Below, one piece after another: positions 48,262 to 58,632 of a stretch of DNA of 64,000 nt. Position 1 is the stretch's first letter, and each line of letters begins with the position of its first letter. The translations under genes were made by a program, and so were the position numbers. The notes under the pieces are model-generated. The model had not been told where the DNA came from. It ran no database searches and saw nothing but the letters and a program-made list of their open reading frames with translations. This stretch comes from Glaciimonas sp. PAMC28666. GTDB taxonomy: Bacteria > Pseudomonadota > Gammaproteobacteria > Burkholderiales > Burkholderiaceae_D. The stretch covers positions 4,712,001 to 4,776,000 of the forward strand of contig NZ_CP070304.1 of NCBI RefSeq assembly GCF_016917355.1, read 5' to 3'.

Positions 48262-50919
48262 TTACTCCGTCGCATCCGGCTTGAAACCTAGTTTGCGCAT
48301 TGCGGCCGCCAAGCCTTGCGCAGAGGTGGCATAGTTGTCCCAAGGAATATTCCCTTGATCGAGACGAGTATGAATGGTGCGGATGGTCCAGTGCGCTCCA
48401 CCGGTCACGTGATTCAGTTCGTCCCATGCGATCGGTACCGAGACGCCCATTCCCGGCCTGGCGCGCGCAGACCATGCGCATACGGTGGTGGCCCCAAAAC
48501 CATTACGAAGATAGTCGACGAAGATTTTTCCGACGCGATTACGCGGGCCACTTTTCACCACAAAATGCGTTGGTATTGCTGAGACCAGATGCGCAACGAT
48601 AGCGCGTGAGAATGCCTTGACAGTTTCCCAGCCGTGCCGCTTCGCAATCGGCACGACGATATGGAAGCCTTTCCCGCCGCTAGTTTTCACGAACGATGTC
48701 AGTCCTAACTGATCGAGGAGCGCTTTGACGAGCAAGGTTGATTCTTGCATGGTTCCCCATTCCACGCCCTCCCCCGGATCAAGATCGAAGGTCATGCGGT
48801 CCGGTTTGTTGATTGCGGTCTTGATCGCATTCCAGGTATGAAACTCGACCACATTCATCTGTGCCGCCGACAACAGTCCCTCGGGTCGCGCAACCTCAAG
48901 TAAGCGCTCATGATCAGGATCAAGGTCGGCCGCCAGCTGTGCAATGCCAGCCATCTGCGCGATGGCTAAATGTTTTTGGAAAAAAACCTGTTTTCCCACA
49001 CCATCAGGGGCGCGCATCAGCGACACGGGACGTCCTTTAAGGTGAGGCATCATCAATGGCGCTACCAGAGCATAAAATCGCAAAAGCTCGATTTTGGTGA
49101 TGCCGCTGGCAGAATCTACCTCACGTTCTGGATTCGTAATCTTCAACGAAGATGGTAGCGCAGACGAAGCGCCGAGCTTCTCTTCCACATGCTTTGGAAC
49201 TTCACGCACGATTGATCGTGCCGGTTTATCACTGCGCAATCCGTGATAAACCGGATGTCTTATCCGTCCGCTTTTGGTCCACTCTGCGAACGAGACCTCC
49301 GCTAACAATTCTGGCTTGACCCAATGCCCTTCGGGCCGTACATCGCTCACGGCGTTAAACGGGCATTTCTCACTCTTTATTGCGGTCAATGCGGCTGTTA
49401 GCGAGCGCAAGGTTTTTTCATCAAAACCTGTTCCTACCTTGCCTGCATAACGCAATTTTCCATCGGCATCATGTACCCCAAGTAACAATGCTCCCAGACC
49501 GGACCGGCTTCCCTGTGGATCGGTATAGCCGCCGATGACAAACTCCTGTCGGTGACTGCACTTGAGTTTAATCCAGTCCGGGGAGCGACGACTAAGGTAG
49601 GGTGCGTCCCGCTTTTTGCCAATCACTCCCTCCATTCCGAGTTGACAAGCAGATTTCACAATATCCGCGCCAATTGCCTCGAAATTTTCACTAAAGCGGA
49701 TCGTTTGTGAGTTATTCTTTTCGAGCAAAGATTGTAAGATCGTTCGCCGCGCCATCAGAGGGACCTGGCGTAGATCAAATCCGGAGGAAAATGGAAGATC
49801 GAATAAAAAATAGACAATGCGTTGCGTCCTTTTTGCGTCAAAGGCACCTTGTAACGCCTGAAAATCAGGAATGCCATTTTCACCCGGCATGACGATTTCA
49901 CCGTCATACCATCCGTTAGGGAGTTTGGCCTCTCTCAGCGCCTCGGCCAACGCCGGCAGTTTTTCCGTCCAATCATGGCCGTTGCGTGTGATCAGGGAAA
50001 TCTTTTTTCCATCAATGCGGGACAATAATCGATACCCATCGTATTTTATTTCATACAGCCAGTCTTCGGAATCAGCGGGCGCGCTATCTACCAGCGTTGC
50101 CAGTTGCGGAACCAATTTAGGTGGAAGTGGCGCTTTTATCGCACCAGAAGGCATGGCAATTTTTTTTGAACCTGATATTTTTTCTGTTTTTTCTGTTGTT
50201 ATGGGCACGGACTTTTTGGTAGCAAGTGGTGACTGGGGTTTGCGTTCCTTTTTAGTGGCGTTCGCGGCGTCGCGATTGGCGGTGGTGACGTTCTTGGGTT
50301 TAAGGGCGCTTTTTGGCGATGTGGTGTTTTTGGATGTCGGCGGCGGCAATTTTGCGACGCTATCCGGCATTTCATCGACCACACTGAAGTCCAAGGCTGG
50401 CCGCGCAAACGCATCTTTTTCTTTGATCAGTAACCATGTTGGCTTTTTGTTCTTATCGGACGCCGTGTCGGTATCGTCTCTATTTTTTATCCTGAGCAGC
50501 GCCCAGTTCCCGTGCAATTTATGACCCTGCAGCGAAAATTTTAAATTACCGTCACGCAATCCGATCTCCGGGTCATCAAGCGGTTGCCAGATACCCCTAT
50601 CCCAAATAATCACTTTACCGGCGCCGTATTGTTTGGCCGGAATTTCACCCTCAAACTGGTTATACGCAATCGGGTGATCCTCAACCTGCACCGCCATGCG
50701 TTTATCCTTAGGATCAAAACTTGGTCCCTTAGGCACCGCCCAGCTCCGCATAGTGCCCTGGAATTCAAGCCGGAAGTCGTAATGCAAACGCGTGGCCCAG
50801 TGTTTCTGCACAACAAAGGCAAAACCAGACCCGACGGTGTCACCGCCGTCCTGAGGTTCTGTTGTTTTATTAAAATCACGTTTGGTTTTGTAAATCTTCA
50901 ACGGATCGGAACGTGCCAT
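48262..50919 (-). CDS. ligD: Multifunctional NHEJ DNA ligase D
   Basis: 885 residues in the order phosphoesterase, ligase, polymerase, as in Pseudomonas LigD. Phosphoesterase (1-170): LHYDFRLE, WAVPKGPS, VEDHPIAY and EIPAKQYGAG. A Lys/Pro/Thr-rich linker covers about 190-270. The ATP-dependent ligase domain has catalytic Lys292 (EIKYDGYR). The polymerase/primase domain has DLDPGEG near 711 and KTSGGKGFH. ATG at 50919 has GGGAG upstream; an upstream reading to 51126 is not needed. It is 91 bases downstream of ku. Confidence 0.96.
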   Translation of the reverse strand: MARSDPLKIYKTKRDFNKTTEPQDGGDTVGSGFAFVVQKHWATRLHYDFRLEFQGTMRSWAVPKGPSFDPKDKRMAVQVEDHPIAYNQFEGEIPAKQYGAGKVIIWDRGIWQPLDDPEIGLRDGNLKFSLQGHKLHGNWALLRIKNRDDTDTASDKNKKPTWLLIKEKDAFARPALDFSVVDEMPDSVAKLPPPTSKNTTSPKSALKPKNVTTANRDAANATKKERKPQSPLATKKSVPITTEKTEKISGSKKIAMPSGAIKAPLPPKLVPQLATLVDSAPADSEDWLYEIKYDGYRLLSRIDGKKISLITRNGHDWTEKLPALAEALREAKLPNGWYDGEIVMPGENGIPDFQALQGAFDAKRTQRIVYFLFDLPFSSGFDLRQVPLMARRTILQSLLEKNNSQTIRFSENFEAIGADIVKSACQLGMEGVIGKKRDAPYLSRRSPDWIKLKCSHRQEFVIGGYTDPQGSRSGLGALLLGVHDADGKLRYAGKVGTGFDEKTLRSLTAALTAIKSEKCPFNAVSDVRPEGHWVKPELLAEVSFAEWTKSGRIRHPVYHGLRSDKPARSIVREVPKHVEEKLGASSALPSSLKITNPEREVDSASGITKIELLRFYALVAPLMMPHLKGRPVSLMRAPDGVGKQVFFQKHLAIAQMAGIAQLAADLDPDHERLLEVARPEGLLSAAQMNVVEFHTWNAIKTAINKPDRMTFDLDPGEGVEWGTMQESTLLVKALLDQLGLTSFVKTSGGKGFHIVVPIAKRHGWETVKAFSRAIVAHLVSAIPTHFVVKSGPRNRVGKIFVDYLRNGFGATTVCAWSARARPGMGVSVPIAWDELNHVTGGAHWTIRTIHTRLDQGNIPWDNYATSAQGLAAAMRKLGFKPDATE

Positions 50920-51010
50920 GACGATCTCCCGTATTTTAATATTCCAGGTCCTTAACGCGATGAGTCTGGGTGACCCTGCGTGACGATGTGAGTGACAATC
51001 TGAGTGGTGA

Positions 51011-51931
51011 TTAAACCGACTTTCGTTTAGTAACAGTTTTTTTAGCGGGTGCGGGTGCGTCAGCCGCTTTCGGTTTGGTGGCAACGCGTTTGGAGGGAGC
51101 GCTTTTCGTCGGCGATTTACCGACATTGTTCAAACTTCGCTGCAGCATTTCTGTAAGGTCGTAAATACGTGCGCCAGCGCCTGATTCACCGGGCTCTTTT
51201 TCGACAGGTGAAACCATTTCGGTTTGGCCAGCCTTGACTTTCTCTTCTACCAATTTGAGGATCTGCTCTTTGAATGAATCAGAAAACTCTTCCGGATTCC
51301 ATGCGCCGCTCATATCGCGGACCAGTTGTTCACCCATTTTCATTTCTTTATCACTAAGACCGGTCGCCTTGATGCCTTCAGCCGGCAAATCAAGTTCATC
51401 CCAGCCCCGGACCTCGGTTCCCCAGCGCAACAAATCCAATACCAACGCAGGGCCGCAGGGCATCAACACTGCCAGATGCTGCTTGGTCTGGATCACCACT
51501 TTAGCAATGCCGACCTTTCCTGTTTTAAGCAACACTTCCCGCAATAACGCATAGACTTTCGCACCTTTATTAATCGGCGACACATAATAAGGTCTCTCCA
51601 GGTATAAAAACGGAATGTCGCCAGCATCCACAAAGCTTTCGATTTCTATCGTTTGTGTCGCTTTTGGATAGGCCGCAGCTATTTCTTCCTGCGACAAAAT
51701 CACGTACTGGCCGTCCTCATACTCAATGCCTTTAACAATATTATCTTTGTCGACGTCTTTGCCGGTTTTCTTATTGATCCTCTTGTAACCCACGGGGTCC
51801 ATACTACGTTTATCAAGCCAGTCAAAATTGAGGCCCTGCTCTGCTGTAGCGGAATGTAATGCGATGGGAATATGCACCAACCCAAACGAAATTGCGCCTT
51901 TCCACAAGACACGTTTGCTTGAAGTAGCCAT
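51011..51931 (-). CDS. ku: Non-homologous end-joining protein Ku
   Basis: 306 residues. Bacterial Ku core: LWKGAISFGLVHIPIALHSA at the N-terminus, VGYKRINKKTGKDV, and the C-terminal bridge region. The tail is Lys/Ala/Pro-rich (KRVATKPKAADAPAPAKKTV), typical of DNA-binding extensions. It binds DNA ends as a homodimer and recruits LigD. It precedes ligD on the same strand. Confidence 0.97.
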   Translation of the reverse strand: MATSSKRVLWKGAISFGLVHIPIALHSATAEQGLNFDWLDKRSMDPVGYKRINKKTGKDVDKDNIVKGIEYEDGQYVILSQEEIAAAYPKATQTIEIESFVDAGDIPFLYLERPYYVSPINKGAKVYALLREVLLKTGKVGIAKVVIQTKQHLAVLMPCGPALVLDLLRWGTEVRGWDELDLPAEGIKATGLSDKEMKMGEQLVRDMSGAWNPEEFSDSFKEQILKLVEEKVKAGQTEMVSPVEKEPGESGAGARIYDLTEMLQRSLNNVGKSPTKSAPSKRVATKPKAADAPAPAKKTVTKRKSV

Positions 51932-52786: not shown

Positions 52787-53764
52787 CTATTTTGGTCGAC
52801 GCAACAAATGGCCTGCGGCATTTTCATCGAAGCGCCCCGCCTCCTCAATATACCCCGACACTGTTCCGTCATGTTGCCAGCCACCCTGCCGTTTAATATC
52901 CTGAAACCGTGCACCGGCGCGATAAGCGCTGGTGGCTAAGCCGCGACGAAGGCTGTGACTGCTCAACTGAGGAACATAAGGTAAACCGGCAAGCGTAGCC
53001 GCTGCCGCCAAAATACCGTTTAGACTGGCTTCATGGATCGCTTCGGAACCAAGCTGTCCCCATTTATTAATGCTTCTGAAGATCGGTCCCGAAGTGATTT
53101 CCGCGGCCTGGCACCAGTCACGCAAAGCACTGGGCGGGCAACAGACTTGCTCACCAAAAGGAATTGCCTTGGTAATCCCTTCACCTTTTTGATCAGTCTT
53201 TGAGCGCGGTAGCGTGATAAGAACGCCCTCTGGCTCCCAGGTGAGATGCGTAATTTGAAGACGCACAACCTCACTGCGTCGATAAGCCCCAAAGTAAGAT
53301 ATCTGCAGTAATGCATTATCGCGAAGCGCTTTTAATGTGCCCTGCTCCCGCAACGCCATGACGATCAACGCCAGATCCTCCACGGGGAGCGCCTTTGCCT
53401 TTTTAGCAGGCAGCCCATTTTTGCGCTGGATGCCCAGCAACGTTTTGCGTACGGTAGGCGTCGCTGCAGGATCAGGAAAGCTTTGTTGAATATGCCATTG
53501 CGATAACGCTGTTAAGCGCAAGGCCAGCGTTCTTGGATTGAGCGCGTGAGAGTAAGCGAGCAGGTAACGAAGAACCGACGATTCATCGGCAGGAAGCACG
53601 CCTCCCCATGTTAAAAAGTGGCGAATCGCGGAGCGATAAGTACGACGCGTGTTGTCCGACGTGGCTGCGGCAAGAAATTCATGGTGCTGTTGACGCCACT
53701 CCGCGAGGGAATCATTGGGCGTTATGCTAACCCCATCTGCACCATCGATAATTTGAATACTCAT
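52787..53764 (-). CDS. Tyrosine recombinase (XerC/integrase-like)
   Basis: 325 residues. N-terminal SAM-like core-binding domain (about 18-120: NTRRTYRSAIRHFLTWGG). The catalytic domain has Arg162 (GAYRRSEVVRL), Lys189 in the beta hairpin (RSKTDQKGEG), His270 and Arg273 (SSHSLRRGLA), Trp296 (GGWQHDG) and nucleophile Tyr305 (GTVSGYIEEAG). All catalytic residues are present, so it should be active. It is divergent from a KfrA-like gene; a loxP-like site lies between them. Confidence 0.92.
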   Translation of the reverse strand: MSIQIIDGADGVSITPNDSLAEWRQQHHEFLAAATSDNTRRTYRSAIRHFLTWGGVLPADESSVLRYLLAYSHALNPRTLALRLTALSQWHIQQSFPDPAATPTVRKTLLGIQRKNGLPAKKAKALPVEDLALIVMALREQGTLKALRDNALLQISYFGAYRRSEVVRLQITHLTWEPEGVLITLPRSKTDQKGEGITKAIPFGEQVCCPPSALRDWCQAAEITSGPIFRSINKWGQLGSEAIHEASLNGILAAAATLAGLPYVPQLSSHSLRRGLATSAYRAGARFQDIKRQGGWQHDGTVSGYIEEAGRFDENAAGHLLRRPK

Positions 53765-53793
53765 TTAGTCAGTTCATCCCAATCAGCGCTTCA

Positions 53794-53817
53794 AATTACA
53801 CCGCATCAGGTGTAATT
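53794..53817. promoter_or_regulatory. Inverted repeat at the recombinase promoter (GGTGTAAT box)
   Basis: AATTACACC-GCATCA-GGTGTAATT, a perfect nine-base inverted repeat with a six-base spacer, 30 bases upstream of the recombinase ATG. The GGTGTAAT half recurs at 54053-54060 near the divergent kfrA-like promoter. Confidence 0.65.
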
Positions 53818-53982
53818 ATTTTTACTTTCCAGTCGTGTTGCCATAACCGATGACTAACGACCATCTCGAAATGAATCCCTTTCCGCAAAAATGCCAACCA
53901 TGCGGGATCGCTTTAAACGTCAAAAATTGCCCCATTTTGCAGCGTAATGCCCATTACAAACAGGAAGCTGGCAACGACAATC

Positions 53983-54016
53983 ATAACATGCGATAACATA
54001 CATTATCGAACGTTAT
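53983..54016. other. loxP/dif-like candidate recombination site
   Basis: Left arm ATAACATGCGATAA (53983-53996), spacer CATACA, right arm whose reverse complement is ATAACGTTCGATAA (54003-54016). Arms match at 12 of 14 positions. The inner bases ATAA-N6-TTAT and the six-base spacer are as in dif sites of XerC/XerD; on the other strand the spacer reads TGTATG against TGTATA in E. coli dif. It lies in the promoter region between the recombinase and KfrA-like genes. Confidence 0.65.
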
Positions 54017-54052
54017 AAATACGCACAAGAAGATATTAATTTTATAAAATTT

Positions 54053-54081
54053 GGTGTAATATTACGTATTATGTATTACGT
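54053..54081. promoter_or_regulatory. GGTGTAAT box and 18-base palindrome before the KfrA-like gene
   Basis: GGTGTAAT (54053-54060) is followed by an imperfect 18-base palindrome (54064-54081, ACGTA / TACGT ends, 14 of 18 symmetric). TATTACGT appears twice, 14 bases apart. It ends 15 bases before the ATG, over the likely promoter, as expected for autoregulation by a KfrA protein. Confidence 0.5.
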
Positions 54082-54096
54082 TATTAAAGGAAAAAA

Positions 54097-55158
54097 ATGG
54101 GACGGATTGGAATTTCGTACGTCGACGTTAGTCAATCAGCCGATAAATTGGTGGCCGAAGGCAAAAATCCAACGGTAGATAGCGTTCGGGAAGAGTTAGG
54201 AAGTACCGGAAGTAAAAGCACTCTTGCCCCTCTGCTGAAACGTTGGAAGGCAGAACATCAGGAAAACATGGCCAGCGCGGGCGTCGGCATGCCGTCCAAT
54301 TTGGTGGACGCTATGAAAAGTGTTTATGACAACCTTCAGGCCGACGTGGAGCAAAGAATCGCCCTGGTGCAAGATGCGCATCAAATCGCGTTGGCAGAGT
54401 TGGGCGAAATAGTCCAGCAGCAACGGGAAGAAAATGCCATCGCCGTTGAAACGAATGCCCAATTAAATGAAGAGGCGAGCCGCGCGCAGCAAGTGTTCGA
54501 ACAACTGCGCGCTGAACAACGCGCACTAAATCTAGCGCTGGCGACGGCCCAGGCCGAAAATACAGGATTGCTCAATCGCCTGGCTGATCGCGCTGCAGAA
54601 ATTGTGACGATGCATCAACAATTAAGTTACGCCCGAACACAGTTTGAACATTATCAGGAAGCCAGTACCATCCAACGGGCCGAAGAGCGTAGCGGATTTG
54701 AGCAAAAGCTCATGCGTGGAGAGCAAGAACTTGCCACCATTCGTCAACAATCCAATGATCAACAGTTAAAATTAATCCAGCAGGAAAATCGGCTTGCCCA
54801 ACTTCCAACCTTAGTGCAGGAAGTGCAGCGATTGCAGGACATCGCGAACATTGAGCGCCAACAAGCAGCAGTCATCGGCGCAGAACATACCCAACTAACC
54901 TTTCAGGTACAACAATTGATGACGGAGCGCGCGGAGCTGAAACATAGACTGGAAACGACCCAGCTAGCCTTCAATGAAATCACTTTGCGCTGTGCTGTTG
55001 ATGAAAAAGAAAAGTGGATGCTTGAAAAGCATATCGCTGAAGCGGAAGTCAAAATGGATCAACTCAGAGAAGATAAAATGGGTCTTATGCAGGAGCGCGC
55101 CACCTTGCAGGCGCAGGCTTCGGCTAACGCGATGCAGGCGCCCGCCAAGGCCATATAA
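54097..55158 (+). CDS. KfrA-like DNA-binding coiled-coil protein
   Basis: 353 residues. The N-terminal 100 residues match the plasmid KfrA N domain (PF11740 type): ADKLVAEGKNPTVDSVREEL, STLAPLLKRWKAEHQ. The rest, about 105-345, is a long coiled coil rich in Gln and Glu. Plasmid KfrA proteins bind their own promoter and act in partition or structural roles. Here a chromosomal copy is paired divergently with a tyrosine recombinase. ATG at 54097 has AAAGGA upstream. Confidence 0.85.
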   Translation: MGRIGISYVDVSQSADKLVAEGKNPTVDSVREELGSTGSKSTLAPLLKRWKAEHQENMASAGVGMPSNLVDAMKSVYDNLQADVEQRIALVQDAHQIALAELGEIVQQQREENAIAVETNAQLNEEASRAQQVFEQLRAEQRALNLALATAQAENTGLLNRLADRAAEIVTMHQQLSYARTQFEHYQEASTIQRAEERSGFEQKLMRGEQELATIRQQSNDQQLKLIQQENRLAQLPTLVQEVQRLQDIANIERQQAAVIGAEHTQLTFQVQQLMTERAELKHRLETTQLAFNEITLRCAVDEKEKWMLEKHIAEAEVKMDQLREDKMGLMQERATLQAQASANAMQAPAKAI

Positions 55159-55213
55159 TTCTTTTAAATCTGAAGCGGCGCTTCCTCTGTTGTAAACGAA
55201 GCGCGCAGCCAAA

Positions 55214-55408
55214 CTATGTCTGGGGATTCATGACCAAAACAGCGATCTGATCACCGCCAAAGACCGCCGCAACAGTCGCAACGCCACCGATTTCGGCAAG
55301 AGCCAGCTCCATCTTGGGCATCTTGTCGATCATAAAAATAGCCAGCGCGGTGCCGGTGCCGGGTTGCGCACCGATGACCATCTGAGCCTGCGTGGCGGGA
55401 AAGGCATT
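55214..55408 (-). pseudogene. C-terminal remnant of a minus-strand gene
   Basis: Open from 55408 to a stop at 55214. Its best part starts MVIGAQPGTGTALAIFMIDK and includes GGVATVAAVFGGDQIAVLVM. The sequence is clearly protein-like but truncated by a stop after AF at its 5' side, with no ribosome site. I do not recognise the family. It meets another remnant at about 55409-55420. Confidence 0.45.
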
Positions 55409-55420
55409 TTATTGTAGGCG

Positions 55421-55672
55421 GATGTGCAGCCGCTGGCGAATGGGGAGCAGCTTGATATGGCAGCTGCGGGTGGTCAGCTCGATACGATACTCGCGCAAAT
55501 GGCATCCTTAAACAATGCCGCAAAGCTGGCACACGCTGAAATCACCGATCTGAGAGCAGAAAATCACTAGATGCAAACCAGCGTCAAGACGCTTAAGGAG
55601 GAGTCGCAGAGAATCTTGAGTAATGACTTCATTATTACCATTACTGAGGCTCTCTTTCAGATATATTCTTGA
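55421..55672 (+). pseudogene. 3' remnant of a coiled-coil gene with an in-frame amber codon
   Basis: A plus-strand frame opens after a stop at 55415-55417 and reads LANGEQLDMAAAGGQLDTIL, NNAAKLAHAEITDLRAEN, then TAG at 55568-55570. It continues in frame as MQTSVKTLKEESQRILSND to TGA at 55672. The heptad-like pattern suggests one coiled-coil protein that has lost its 5' part and gained a stop. It could be related to KfrA-like or plasmid proteins. Confidence 0.45.
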
Positions 55673-55748: not shown

Positions 55749-56093
55749 ATGGAAACTAAAGGCGTTATCACCGCGCTATCGGCGTTGGCGCAAGACTCGC
55801 GGCTTGCGGTATTTCGCCTTCTGGTACAAGCCGGTCATGCGGGTATGCCGGCCGGAAAAATCGGCGAAGCCGCGGGAATCTCTCCTTCATCGCTTTCGTT
55901 TCACATGAAAGAATTAGCCCATGCGGAAATGGTGACATCGCGCAATGAGGGGCGATTTGTGATTTACGCGGCTAATTTCAGTACGATGAATGGACTCATC
56001 GCGTTTCTTACTGAAAATTGTTGTGGCGGTATTCCGTGCCTCCCCGATTGCAGCCCTGCAACCCTGTCCGTATCTCCGGCCAAGATTCTGTAA
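55749..56093 (+). CDS. arsR: Arsenic-responsive ArsR repressor
   Basis: 114 residues, winged helix (ISPSSLSFHMKELAHAEMVTSR). The usual ELCVC metal site of E. coli ArsR is absent. The cysteines are near the C-terminus (TENCCGGIPCLPDC), as in the ArsR group with a C-terminal As(III) site. It likely represses arsR-acr3-arsC-arsH through the palindrome upstream. Confidence 0.92.
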   Translation: METKGVITALSALAQDSRLAVFRLLVQAGHAGMPAGKIGEAAGISPSSLSFHMKELAHAEMVTSRNEGRFVIYAANFSTMNGLIAFLTENCCGGIPCLPDCSPATLSVSPAKIL

Positions 56094-56223
56094 TAAGACA
56101 ACGACGACGTGTTTAATTGGATCAATGTCATCGCCGGGACAAAATTGCGACGAAGGTACGCAATCCCAGTCCCATTCTGCTGTCATACGAAACCCAGAGT
56201 TATCCGAATTTTGCGAGAAAATA

Positions 56224-57291
56224 ATGTCCGCCCAATGTGAACTGACCGGTAGGCGTGCCGCTGGTGTCTCCATGAATCTTTTTGAACGTTATCTCACGGT
56301 CTGGGTGGCGCTCTGCATCGTCGTTGGGGTTCTGCTAGGCCGGGGCTTTCCCCATGCGATTCAAGCCATTGGCGCAGTAGAAATCGCTAAAGTGAATCTG
56401 CCAGTCGGCGCCCTAATCTGGGTCATGATCATTCCCATGTTGCTTAAGATTGACTTCTCTGCCTGGAATCAAATCAAAGGACATGTCCGTGGAATCGGGG
56501 TAACGTTATTCATCAACTGGGCTGTTAAACCGTTCTCGATGGCGTTTTTAGCATGGGTGTTTATCCGACATTGGTTTGCGCCGTATCTACCCACTGAACA
56601 GTTGGATTCTTATGTTGCTGGATTGATTCTCCTGGCGGCGGCGCCTTGCACAGCGATGGTATTTGTCTGGAGTCGGCTGACCGGCGGCGATCCTTATTTT
56701 ACGCTCTCGCAAGTCGCCATGAACGATGTGATCATGGTGTTCGCATTTGCACCGTTAGTCGCCTTATTGCTAGGTGTATCCAGTATAACCGTGCCATGGG
56801 CAACGCTAATGACATCGGTCACGCTATACATTATCGTTCCGGTGACCATTGCACAAGTTTGGCGGAAACGCTTGCTTGCGAGCGGACAAGCAAACTTCGA
56901 CAAGGCGATGGACCGTATCCAACCTTGGTCGATCACCGCCCTATTACTCACCCTCGTTTTGCTCTTTGCTTTTCAGGGTAATGCGATCATTGAGCAACCG
57001 CTAGTGATTGGGTTGCTGGCGATTCCAATTTTGATACAGGTCTTTTTTAATTCTGCGCTGGCGTATTGGCTGAATAGAGTTGTCGGTGAAAAGCATTCTA
57101 TTGCATGCCCATCGGCATTGATCGGTGCATCAAATTTTTTTGAATTGGCAGTTGCGGCAGCGATTAGTTTGTTCGGCTTTAAATCCGGCGCCGCACTTGC
57201 CACCGTAGTCGGGGTATTGATCGAAGTGCCTGTGATGCTGCTCATTGTTCGCATCGTCAATCGAACGCAAGGCTGGTACGAAAGACGGTAG
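56224..57291 (+). CDS. acr3: Arsenite efflux transporter Acr3
   Basis: 355 residues with ten helices, the Acr3 (not ArsB) type. FERYLTVWVALCIVVGVLLG at the N-terminus, NLPVGALIWVMIIPMLLKID, and the essential Cys142 in AAPCTAMVFVWSRLTGGD. GASNFFELAVAAAISLFG is the helix 9 motif. It expels As(OH)3 using the proton gradient. ATG at 56224 is chosen; a frame to 55990 overlaps arsR and is unlikely. Confidence 0.95.
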   Translation: MSAQCELTGRRAAGVSMNLFERYLTVWVALCIVVGVLLGRGFPHAIQAIGAVEIAKVNLPVGALIWVMIIPMLLKIDFSAWNQIKGHVRGIGVTLFINWAVKPFSMAFLAWVFIRHWFAPYLPTEQLDSYVAGLILLAAAPCTAMVFVWSRLTGGDPYFTLSQVAMNDVIMVFAFAPLVALLLGVSSITVPWATLMTSVTLYIIVPVTIAQVWRKRLLASGQANFDKAMDRIQPWSITALLLTLVLLFAFQGNAIIEQPLVIGLLAIPILIQVFFNSALAYWLNRVVGEKHSIACPSALIGASNFFELAVAAAISLFGFKSGAALATVVGVLIEVPVMLLIVRIVNRTQGWYERR

Positions 57292-57497
57292 GCCCTGACA
57301 GTGAGCAAACATTCAGGGTGGCGCATTTCTGGATAGAGAATCATTCAGTGCTTATCTTTTGTAGAGGAACCCGGGAGCGGGAAGCAGAAATCTCTTTTCC
57401 TTAGTTGGCGTCGCGTTGTTGGATGCTATTTTTTTACTTATTTAATCAATCTTTCATTGCAGGCCGCTGGCCAGCAAGCCCTCAAGAAAGCCTCACC

Positions 57498-57929
57498 ATG
57501 AACATCACCATTTACCATAATCCCAAATGCGGCACTTCGCGTAACACGCTGGCATTGATACGCAATGCGGGAATTGAGCCTGAAGTGATTGAGTACCTGA
57601 AACATCCGCCGACTACTGCCACGCTTGCGCAATTGATCGCCGATGCGGGACTCACGGTGCGCGATGCTATTCGGCAAAAGGAAACTCTGTATGCGGAACT
57701 TGGGCTGCATAAGGACGAACTGCAGGACGCGGATCTGCTGGCTGCCATGCAAGCCCATCCAATGTTGATCAACCGTCCGTTCGTGGTCACGCCGAACGGG
57801 ACGCGCCTATGCCGCCCATCCGAATTGGTGCTCGATATGTTGCCCCTTACTCAAAAAGGCCCATTCGCCAAAGAGGACGGCGAAGTGGTCATCAATGCGG
57901 AGGGGCAACGTGTCACACCATCTGTTTAA
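57498..57929 (+). CDS. arsC: Arsenate reductase, glutaredoxin-dependent
   Basis: 143 residues of the ArsC/Spx thioredoxin-fold family. Catalytic Cys11 is in [31 protein letters not shown] carries the arginines that bind arsenate. It reduces As(V) to As(III) for Acr3. ATG at 57498 is the family start; the upstream 31 codons look non-coding. It overlaps arsH by 20 bases if arsH starts at GTG 57910. Confidence 0.95.
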
Positions 57930-58632
57930 TTTACCGAATGTCGCAGCCGAGCTCTTCCGGGCGCCGGTCGCATCGGATTTCGATGGTGCCGTTCGGTCGT
58001 CTCATGCGCCGCGTTTTTTGCTGCTTTACGGTTCGTTACGTGAAAAATCTTATAGCCGTTTGCTGACGATGGAAGCTGCCCGATTGCTGGAAGCAATGGG
58101 CGGAGAGGTTAAAATTTTCGATCCCCACGGACTGCCATTGCCGGACGAGCAACCGGATAGCCACTCAAAGGTGCAGGAACTCAGAGCTCTGGCGCAATGG
58201 GCCGAAGGCATGGTCTGGTGTTCGCCTGAGAGGCATGGCGCCATGACTGGCATCATGAAAGCGCAAATCGACTGGATACCGCTAGCTATCGGTGCCGTGC
58301 GTCCGACACAGGGAAAGACACTCGCACTGATGGAAGTATCCGGCGGCTCGCAGTCGTTCAATGCCCTCAATCAGATGCGCATATTGGGCCGCTGGATGCG
58401 GATGATCACGATCCCTAACCAGTCCTCAGTTGCCAAGGCATTTCTAGAGTTTGATGACACTGGTCGTATGAAGCCCTCGGCCTATTACGAACGTGTCGTT
58501 GATGTAATGGAAGAGTTATTCAAATTTACCTTGCTTACCCGCGATGTGTCGTCCTTCCTGGTAGACCGCTATAGCGAACGGAAGGAAAGTGGGGAAGCGT
58601 TGAGCAAGCGTGTAAATCAAAAATCGATCTGA
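57910..58632 (+). CDS. arsH: NADPH-dependent FMN reductase ArsH
   Basis: 240 residues, flavodoxin-like fold. FMN motif [16 protein letters not shown] and the conserved [19 protein letters not shown]. ArsH oxidises trivalent organoarsenicals and reduces quinones. I prefer GTG 57910, which has GGAGGGG 4 bases upstream; ATG 57895 would add five residues. Last gene of the ars operon. Confidence 0.94.

Follow-up and report, generated by a model that had tools for sequence, protein, structure and literature searches.

In the published rst architecture, genes for a tyrosine recombinase and a helper diverge from one another, and the resolution site between them combines an IR1-IR2 crossover with an IRa-IRb repeat (PMC7157771). 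In E. coli, Cre-loxP acting inside ter and aided by FtsK is able to take the place of XerCD-dif (PMC2680272); for resolution systems that use accessory sequences, efficiency falls steeply when the sites are 100 kb apart (PMC11724359). A chromosomal locus from Glaciimonas sp. PAMC28666, lying within a 64-kb window (the whole stretch of DNA analysed), was assigned with high confidence to the TnpS/TnpT/rst type. It appears to be a transposon resolution module that has outlived its transposon and persists near the chromosome terminus. A literature search for chromosomal orphan TnpS/TnpT modules near dif, with most subscription journals outside its coverage, returned no description.

The recombinase gene (52787..53764, minus strand) encodes a TnpS-like (Cre-like) tyrosine recombinase of 325 aa (PF00589, E=2.3e-13). 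It matched Cre in the PDB (E about 1e-11 over residues 57-308), and comparison with Tn4651, for which tnpS and tnpT were located on pWW0, gave 39% identity to TnpS over 305 aa (E=8e-62); scores against XerC and XerD fell far below the cut-offs. Catalytic residues R162, K189, H270, R273, W296 and Y305 are all present, and the R/K/H/R/W/Y set was invariant in 63 of 63 recombinase homologues. Divergent from tnpS, on the plus strand (54097..55158), is a gene for a TnpT-like KfrA_N-domain coiled-coil protein of 353 aa (PF11740, E=1.5e-24). This was 28% identical to TnpT of pWW0 over 220 aa (E=3e-14), which itself matches PF11740. TnpS-like proteins on plasmids pYS1, pND6-1 and pADP-1 matched the window recombinase at 64-72%, and each of their genes adjoins a divergent gene for a DNA-binding protein; at the DNA level, plasmids gave no near match.

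The relatives considered below belong either to clade A, which is that of the window recombinase, or to clade B, which comprises 57-61% relatives of Tn4651. Gene trees grouped largely by genus. The recombinase tree united the Glaciimonas sequences (100/100) and also the chromosomal Janthinobacterium copies, with weaker support for one member and with G211 apart; forks between genera were mostly unresolved. Site and partner are not retained in every copy: in G211, a Janthinobacterium, the recombinase (L153) lies 35 kb from dif, and neither a KfrA/TnpT partner nearby nor a recognisable core was detected.

A 332-bp gap (53765-54096) separates the two genes and holds an rst crossover-type core (53983..54016, no strand assigned), ATAACATGCGATAA-CATACA-TTATCGAACGTTAT, in which two 14-bp arms, symmetrical at 12 of 14 positions, flank a 6-bp spacer. 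It can alternatively be parsed as 13-bp arms around an 8-bp overlap, ACATACAT. The core is identical to loxP at 25 of 34 bases, including 7 of 8 in the overlap. The initial annotation had described these arms and spacer, and had taken them for a site of lox or Xer geometry, distinct from a standard chromosomal dif, that belonged to a neighbouring recombinase with its catalytic residues intact. The sequence agrees with that description, and the attribution is upheld by the matches of enzyme and site to P1 Cre and loxP; what it missed is the TnpS/TnpT identity of the locus, i.e., a Tn4651-type resolution system, and its location near the terminus.

The window contains six repeats with 14-bp arms, a 6-bp spacer and at least 12 of 14 matches, and symmetry alone is therefore the weaker evidence; among simulated 332-bp intergenic regions, such a repeat arose in 9 of 2000 simulations. 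It is conservation, more than symmetry, that is decisive for the reality of the core. A protein search returned G. immobilis at 79% identity, in keeping with the genus Glaciimonas. Orthologues were found in three of four other Glaciimonas genomes (81-83%), and in all three the arms match at 14 of 14 positions around the same CATACA spacer. The inverted repeat is thus present at orthologous loci, where its absence would have refuted the initial annotation. The core letters are identical (22/22) across the four Glaciimonas sequences. Elsewhere in the intergenic region little can be aligned, the exceptions being a GTAAT..ATTAC palindrome towards the recombinase gene and a TAATATTACGTATTATGTATTACGTTA block towards kfrA. 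The middle three arm bases vary by species, and the three other Glaciimonas change both arms together (ATG/CAT, ATT/AAT, ACA/TGT), which is the behaviour expected of a protein-bound palindrome; the window copy is the only slightly asymmetric core among the four. In the wider family, sampled at 61 distinct loci, information content was approximately 1.8 bits per column for the six innermost bases of each arm, against 0.46 for the spacer and 0.46-0.50 for the flanks. The spacer is fixed within Glaciimonas, is mostly GCGATC or GCAATC in Janthinobacterium, and varies between genera, a pattern to be expected if it is a crossover overlap, which need match only its own copy.

Two further elements lie in the gap, again with no strand assigned. 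On the tnpS side, the palindrome GTAATG-CC-CATTAC (53944..53957) has halves, GTAAT and ATTAC, that are conserved in the four Glaciimonas, unlike the neighbouring DNA; it is a possible accessory element. On the tnpT side, the repeat GTAATATTACGTATTATGTATTACGTTATTAA (54056..54087) hardly varies within Glaciimonas, is conserved in other genera and on plasmids as well, and is likely to be a TnpT-binding site and the kfrA/tnpT promoter region. The intergenic regions of Tn4651 and clade B have aligned counterparts of both the core and this repeat, in the same order as in the window: a GATAA-N-TTATC core, followed by a TATGTAATTACGTATTATGTAATACATTA block near tnpT. TnpS, with TnpT, would be expected to recombine DNA site-specifically at the core. 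The conservation of TnpT and of the extra repeats suggests that the helper is used, unlike in helper-free Cre/lox pairs.

The position of the inverted repeat between divergent genes would also suit an operator, bound by TnpS, the KfrA-like protein or both, that controls the divergent promoters after recombination has fallen out of use. KfrA-type proteins regulate their own promoters, and within the gap the tnpT-side repeat, equally conserved, is the better operator candidate. Retention of every catalytic residue in all 63 homologues speaks against this account, however, and a lox-type geometry with a spacer that is fixed in Glaciimonas yet differs between genera better suits a crossover site; the operator reading was judged unlikely.

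Searches for the 22 core letters, allowing up to three mismatches, gave one match in the window (none in 100 shuffles) and one match in the whole 5.23-Mb genome. One site per genome is also the rule in relatives. The initial annotation had suggested that a second copy elsewhere would mark an excisable segment, and that recombination could switch or block the two promoters. Neither suggestion is supported: excision and inversion were rejected for want of a second site, and an invertible promoter switch would need two inverted copies where the genome has one. Of the initial reading, then, the lox/Xer geometry, the distinction from dif and the conserved arms stand, while excision and promoter inversion do not. 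A related proposal is that the core serves for the integration of plasmids or islands with the same rst core, or ends an excisable segment. Related modules do ride on plasmids, and a second copy was found on a plasmid-sized contig (G255:C2) in Janthinobacterium. However, the coexisting plasmid copy has a different spacer (GCTCGA vs GCGATC), which should block Cre-type exchange, and the Glaciimonas genome offers no second site, so this use was considered very improbable.

No trace of a Tn3 transposase (DDE_Tnp_Tn3) was found in the 64-kb window, and the genome's only Tn3 transposase gene lies ~2.1 Mb from the module. A Tn3-family transposon was therefore rejected as the current identity of the locus. 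Transposase sequence was likewise absent from the Glaciimonas stretches and from those of the main Janthinobacterium cluster, and among the complete clade A genomes that were screened, seven (the six Janthinobacterium G051, G122, G156, G220, G236 and G261, plus G275) were without any Tn3 transposase. Transposon ends, sought at three related loci, gave nothing convincing. Transposase sequence was present in 10 of 60 clade A stretches (up to 20 kb read for each); given this, and its absence at the window, the family would seem to include complete transposons that carry such modules, the window module being an orphan.

The neighbourhood of the module was also examined. The DNA after kfrA/tnpT (55160-55660) looks, on reading, like the degraded remnant of a coiled coil of KfrA type. 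A putative arsenic-resistance gene set (55749-58632) separates kfrA from a porin gene; within it, ArsR was recognised by family search, and a transporter, an ArsC-like and an ArsH-like protein by reading. The set is possibly former transposon cargo. In G004 the porin gene directly adjoins kfrA, without the arsenic set, and relatives of the arsenic-set transporter occur near the module in G036 and G066. Just beyond the recombinase are genes for LigD and Ku (48262-51931), i.e., bacterial end-joining; these are also present in G004 and absent from the two other Glaciimonas orthologue stretches.

All but one of 37 good-quality Janthinobacterium genomes carried the module, and its right flank was common to 24 of the Janthinobacterium stretches read and to 4 of 4 Glaciimonas. 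By simple pairwise estimates, dN/dS of TnpS and TnpT in Janthinobacterium came to about 0.13 and 0.155, respectively; among Glaciimonas pairs dS was saturated or above 2, with dN of 0.10-0.15. This shows that TnpS is under purifying selection. One Glaciimonas genome is without the module, which is thus not essential. The module was considered to be an intact, selected orphan with good confidence, and its retention without a transposase suggests later domestication.

In the window's genome, a perfect-scoring dif-like site, CGCATAATTAGTATTATGTTAAAT, was located at C1:4687543-4687566, opposite dnaA and 78 kb from the core. Identity of the core with chromosomal dif, a 28-bp XerC/XerD site, was rejected, since the dif-like site is elsewhere, in a genome that also has genes for XerC and XerD; the XerD protein scores above the cut-off of its model, and for the second gene XerC gave the best match, just under its cut-off (324 vs 335 bits). 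Proximity to dif is general among the relatives: of the 52 clade A modules that share a contig with dif (9 genera), 51 lay no more than 160 kb from it, and for clade B the figure was 32 of 33 within 90 kb, although these counts include close relatives and are not independent events. The clade A recombinase gene points toward dif in 48 cases, and clade B shows no orientation preference (16/33). Among 22 genomes, chosen mostly as complete, 21 had the module no further from dif than 4.5% of a half-chromosome; G150 alone did not.

Control genes showed how far such a position can be interpreted. Other tyrosine recombinases, a set in which XerC, XerD and three clade B modules are counted, were within 5% of a half-chromosome in 14 of 126 cases, against 6.3 expected, an excess of about two-fold. 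Tn3 transposases were within the same distance of dif in 15 of 24 chromosomal hits (on the chromosomes of G268, G292, G160, G029, G239, G278, G169 and G171); in G160, the start of one is 191 bp away from dif. Given that Tn3 transposases are equally clustered, terminus position is by itself no evidence of function, and the argument from location to function was rejected. The position near dif is probably a legacy of the places where ancestral Tn3-family elements landed or survive. Tn917, another Tn3-family element, may also prefer the terminus, although the literature searched did not confirm this. A separate arrangement was noted in G160 (L185 and L186) and G182 (L187), where dif has a clade B TnpS/TnpT module on either side, the two being inverted relative to each other. 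The G160 modules lie about 10 kb from dif, and inversion of the dif region between them seems unlikely because their two cores have different spacers.

These distributions bear on whether the module is a passive relic, i.e., a resolution cassette left over from a Tn3-family element in a terminus hot spot, which still works and brings the host no benefit. In favour of such a relic are the clustering of Tn3 transposases at the terminus of these genomes, the transposase sequence that remains near some clade A modules, and the two orientations of near-dif clade B modules, as would be found among insertions. It sits less well with low dN/dS, invariant catalytic residues and a core preserved at saturated synonymous divergence, or with a near-universal single copy at one locus in Janthinobacterium. 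A passive relic is a possibility of rather low probability, and ranks close behind the resolution of sister or dimeric chromosomes at the terminus.

The latter reading would run as follows. The most likely vehicle for the module's arrival in the lineage is a Tn4651-type transposon of the Tn3 family that landed near the terminus; the transposon would then have lost its transposase, the module being kept by selection. TnpS would cut and rejoin DNA at the 34-bp core, with strand exchange over the 6-8 bp spacer in the manner of Cre at loxP, and TnpT would bind the tnpT-side repeat (54056-54087) and help TnpS. With one site per chromosome, the only substrates are sister or dimer copies, or a plasmid that enters with a matching spacer. 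The present activity is most likely to be the resolution, in the terminus region, of copies in direct repeat, by recombination between the one site on each sister chromosome or between the two in a dimer, as an auxiliary to XerCD/dif. By analogy, a TnpS/rst module near dif could act like Cre-loxP at ter. Chromosome dimer resolution is already covered by intact XerC, XerD and dif, which counts against it as the benefit, and so does the poor performance of accessory-sequence systems over 100 kb. Terminus sister or dimer resolution is thus the most likely use, and is advanced only tentatively. As a whole, the explanation of a transposase-less, selected module that derives from a transposon and serves terminus resolution is moderately favoured. 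The stronger proposition, that a transposon cointegrate-resolution system was domesticated in Oxalobacteraceae as a second, Cre-like and helper-dependent terminus recombination system, separating sister chromosomes beside XerCD/dif, is more doubtful. If correct, it would exemplify the recruitment of a transposon function to chromosome maintenance. The locus also provides a test case for the accumulation of Tn3-family elements at the terminus in this family and its causes, and the dozens of natural TnpS/rst pairs, with their differing spacers and arms, should be useful for the study of site specificity.

Among described systems, the KfrA protein of IncP plasmids shares with the window protein a KfrA_N DNA-binding domain and a coiled coil, but the latter is paired with a divergent recombinase and is better called TnpT-like. 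XerCD/dif, XerS/difSL and XerH/difH resemble the module in that each chromosome has one site for a tyrosine recombinase, close to the replication terminus; they differ in both recombinase and site, and here the enzyme gene adjoins its site while a normal dif, XerC and XerD coexist. The module resembles TnpS/TnpT/rst of Tn4651 (Tn3 family, pWW0) in each element of its anatomy: a divergent tyrosine recombinase and KfrA_N helper, with a core inverted repeat and a tnpT-side repeat between the genes at aligned positions. Its proteins are nevertheless 39% and 28% identical to those of Tn4651 and belong to a distinct clade, its core sequence is another, and it is chromosomal, without transposase, terminus-located and stably inherited. 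Cre/loxP of phage P1 likewise has a Cre-like recombinase adjoining a 34-bp lox-type site, but protein identity is low, and the window system has in addition a divergent helper, conserved extra repeats and a chromosomal location. Experimenters have placed Cre/loxP at the E. coli terminus to replace dif; in the chromosomes considered here, a Cre-like system of natural origin and its site have apparently been kept near many termini.
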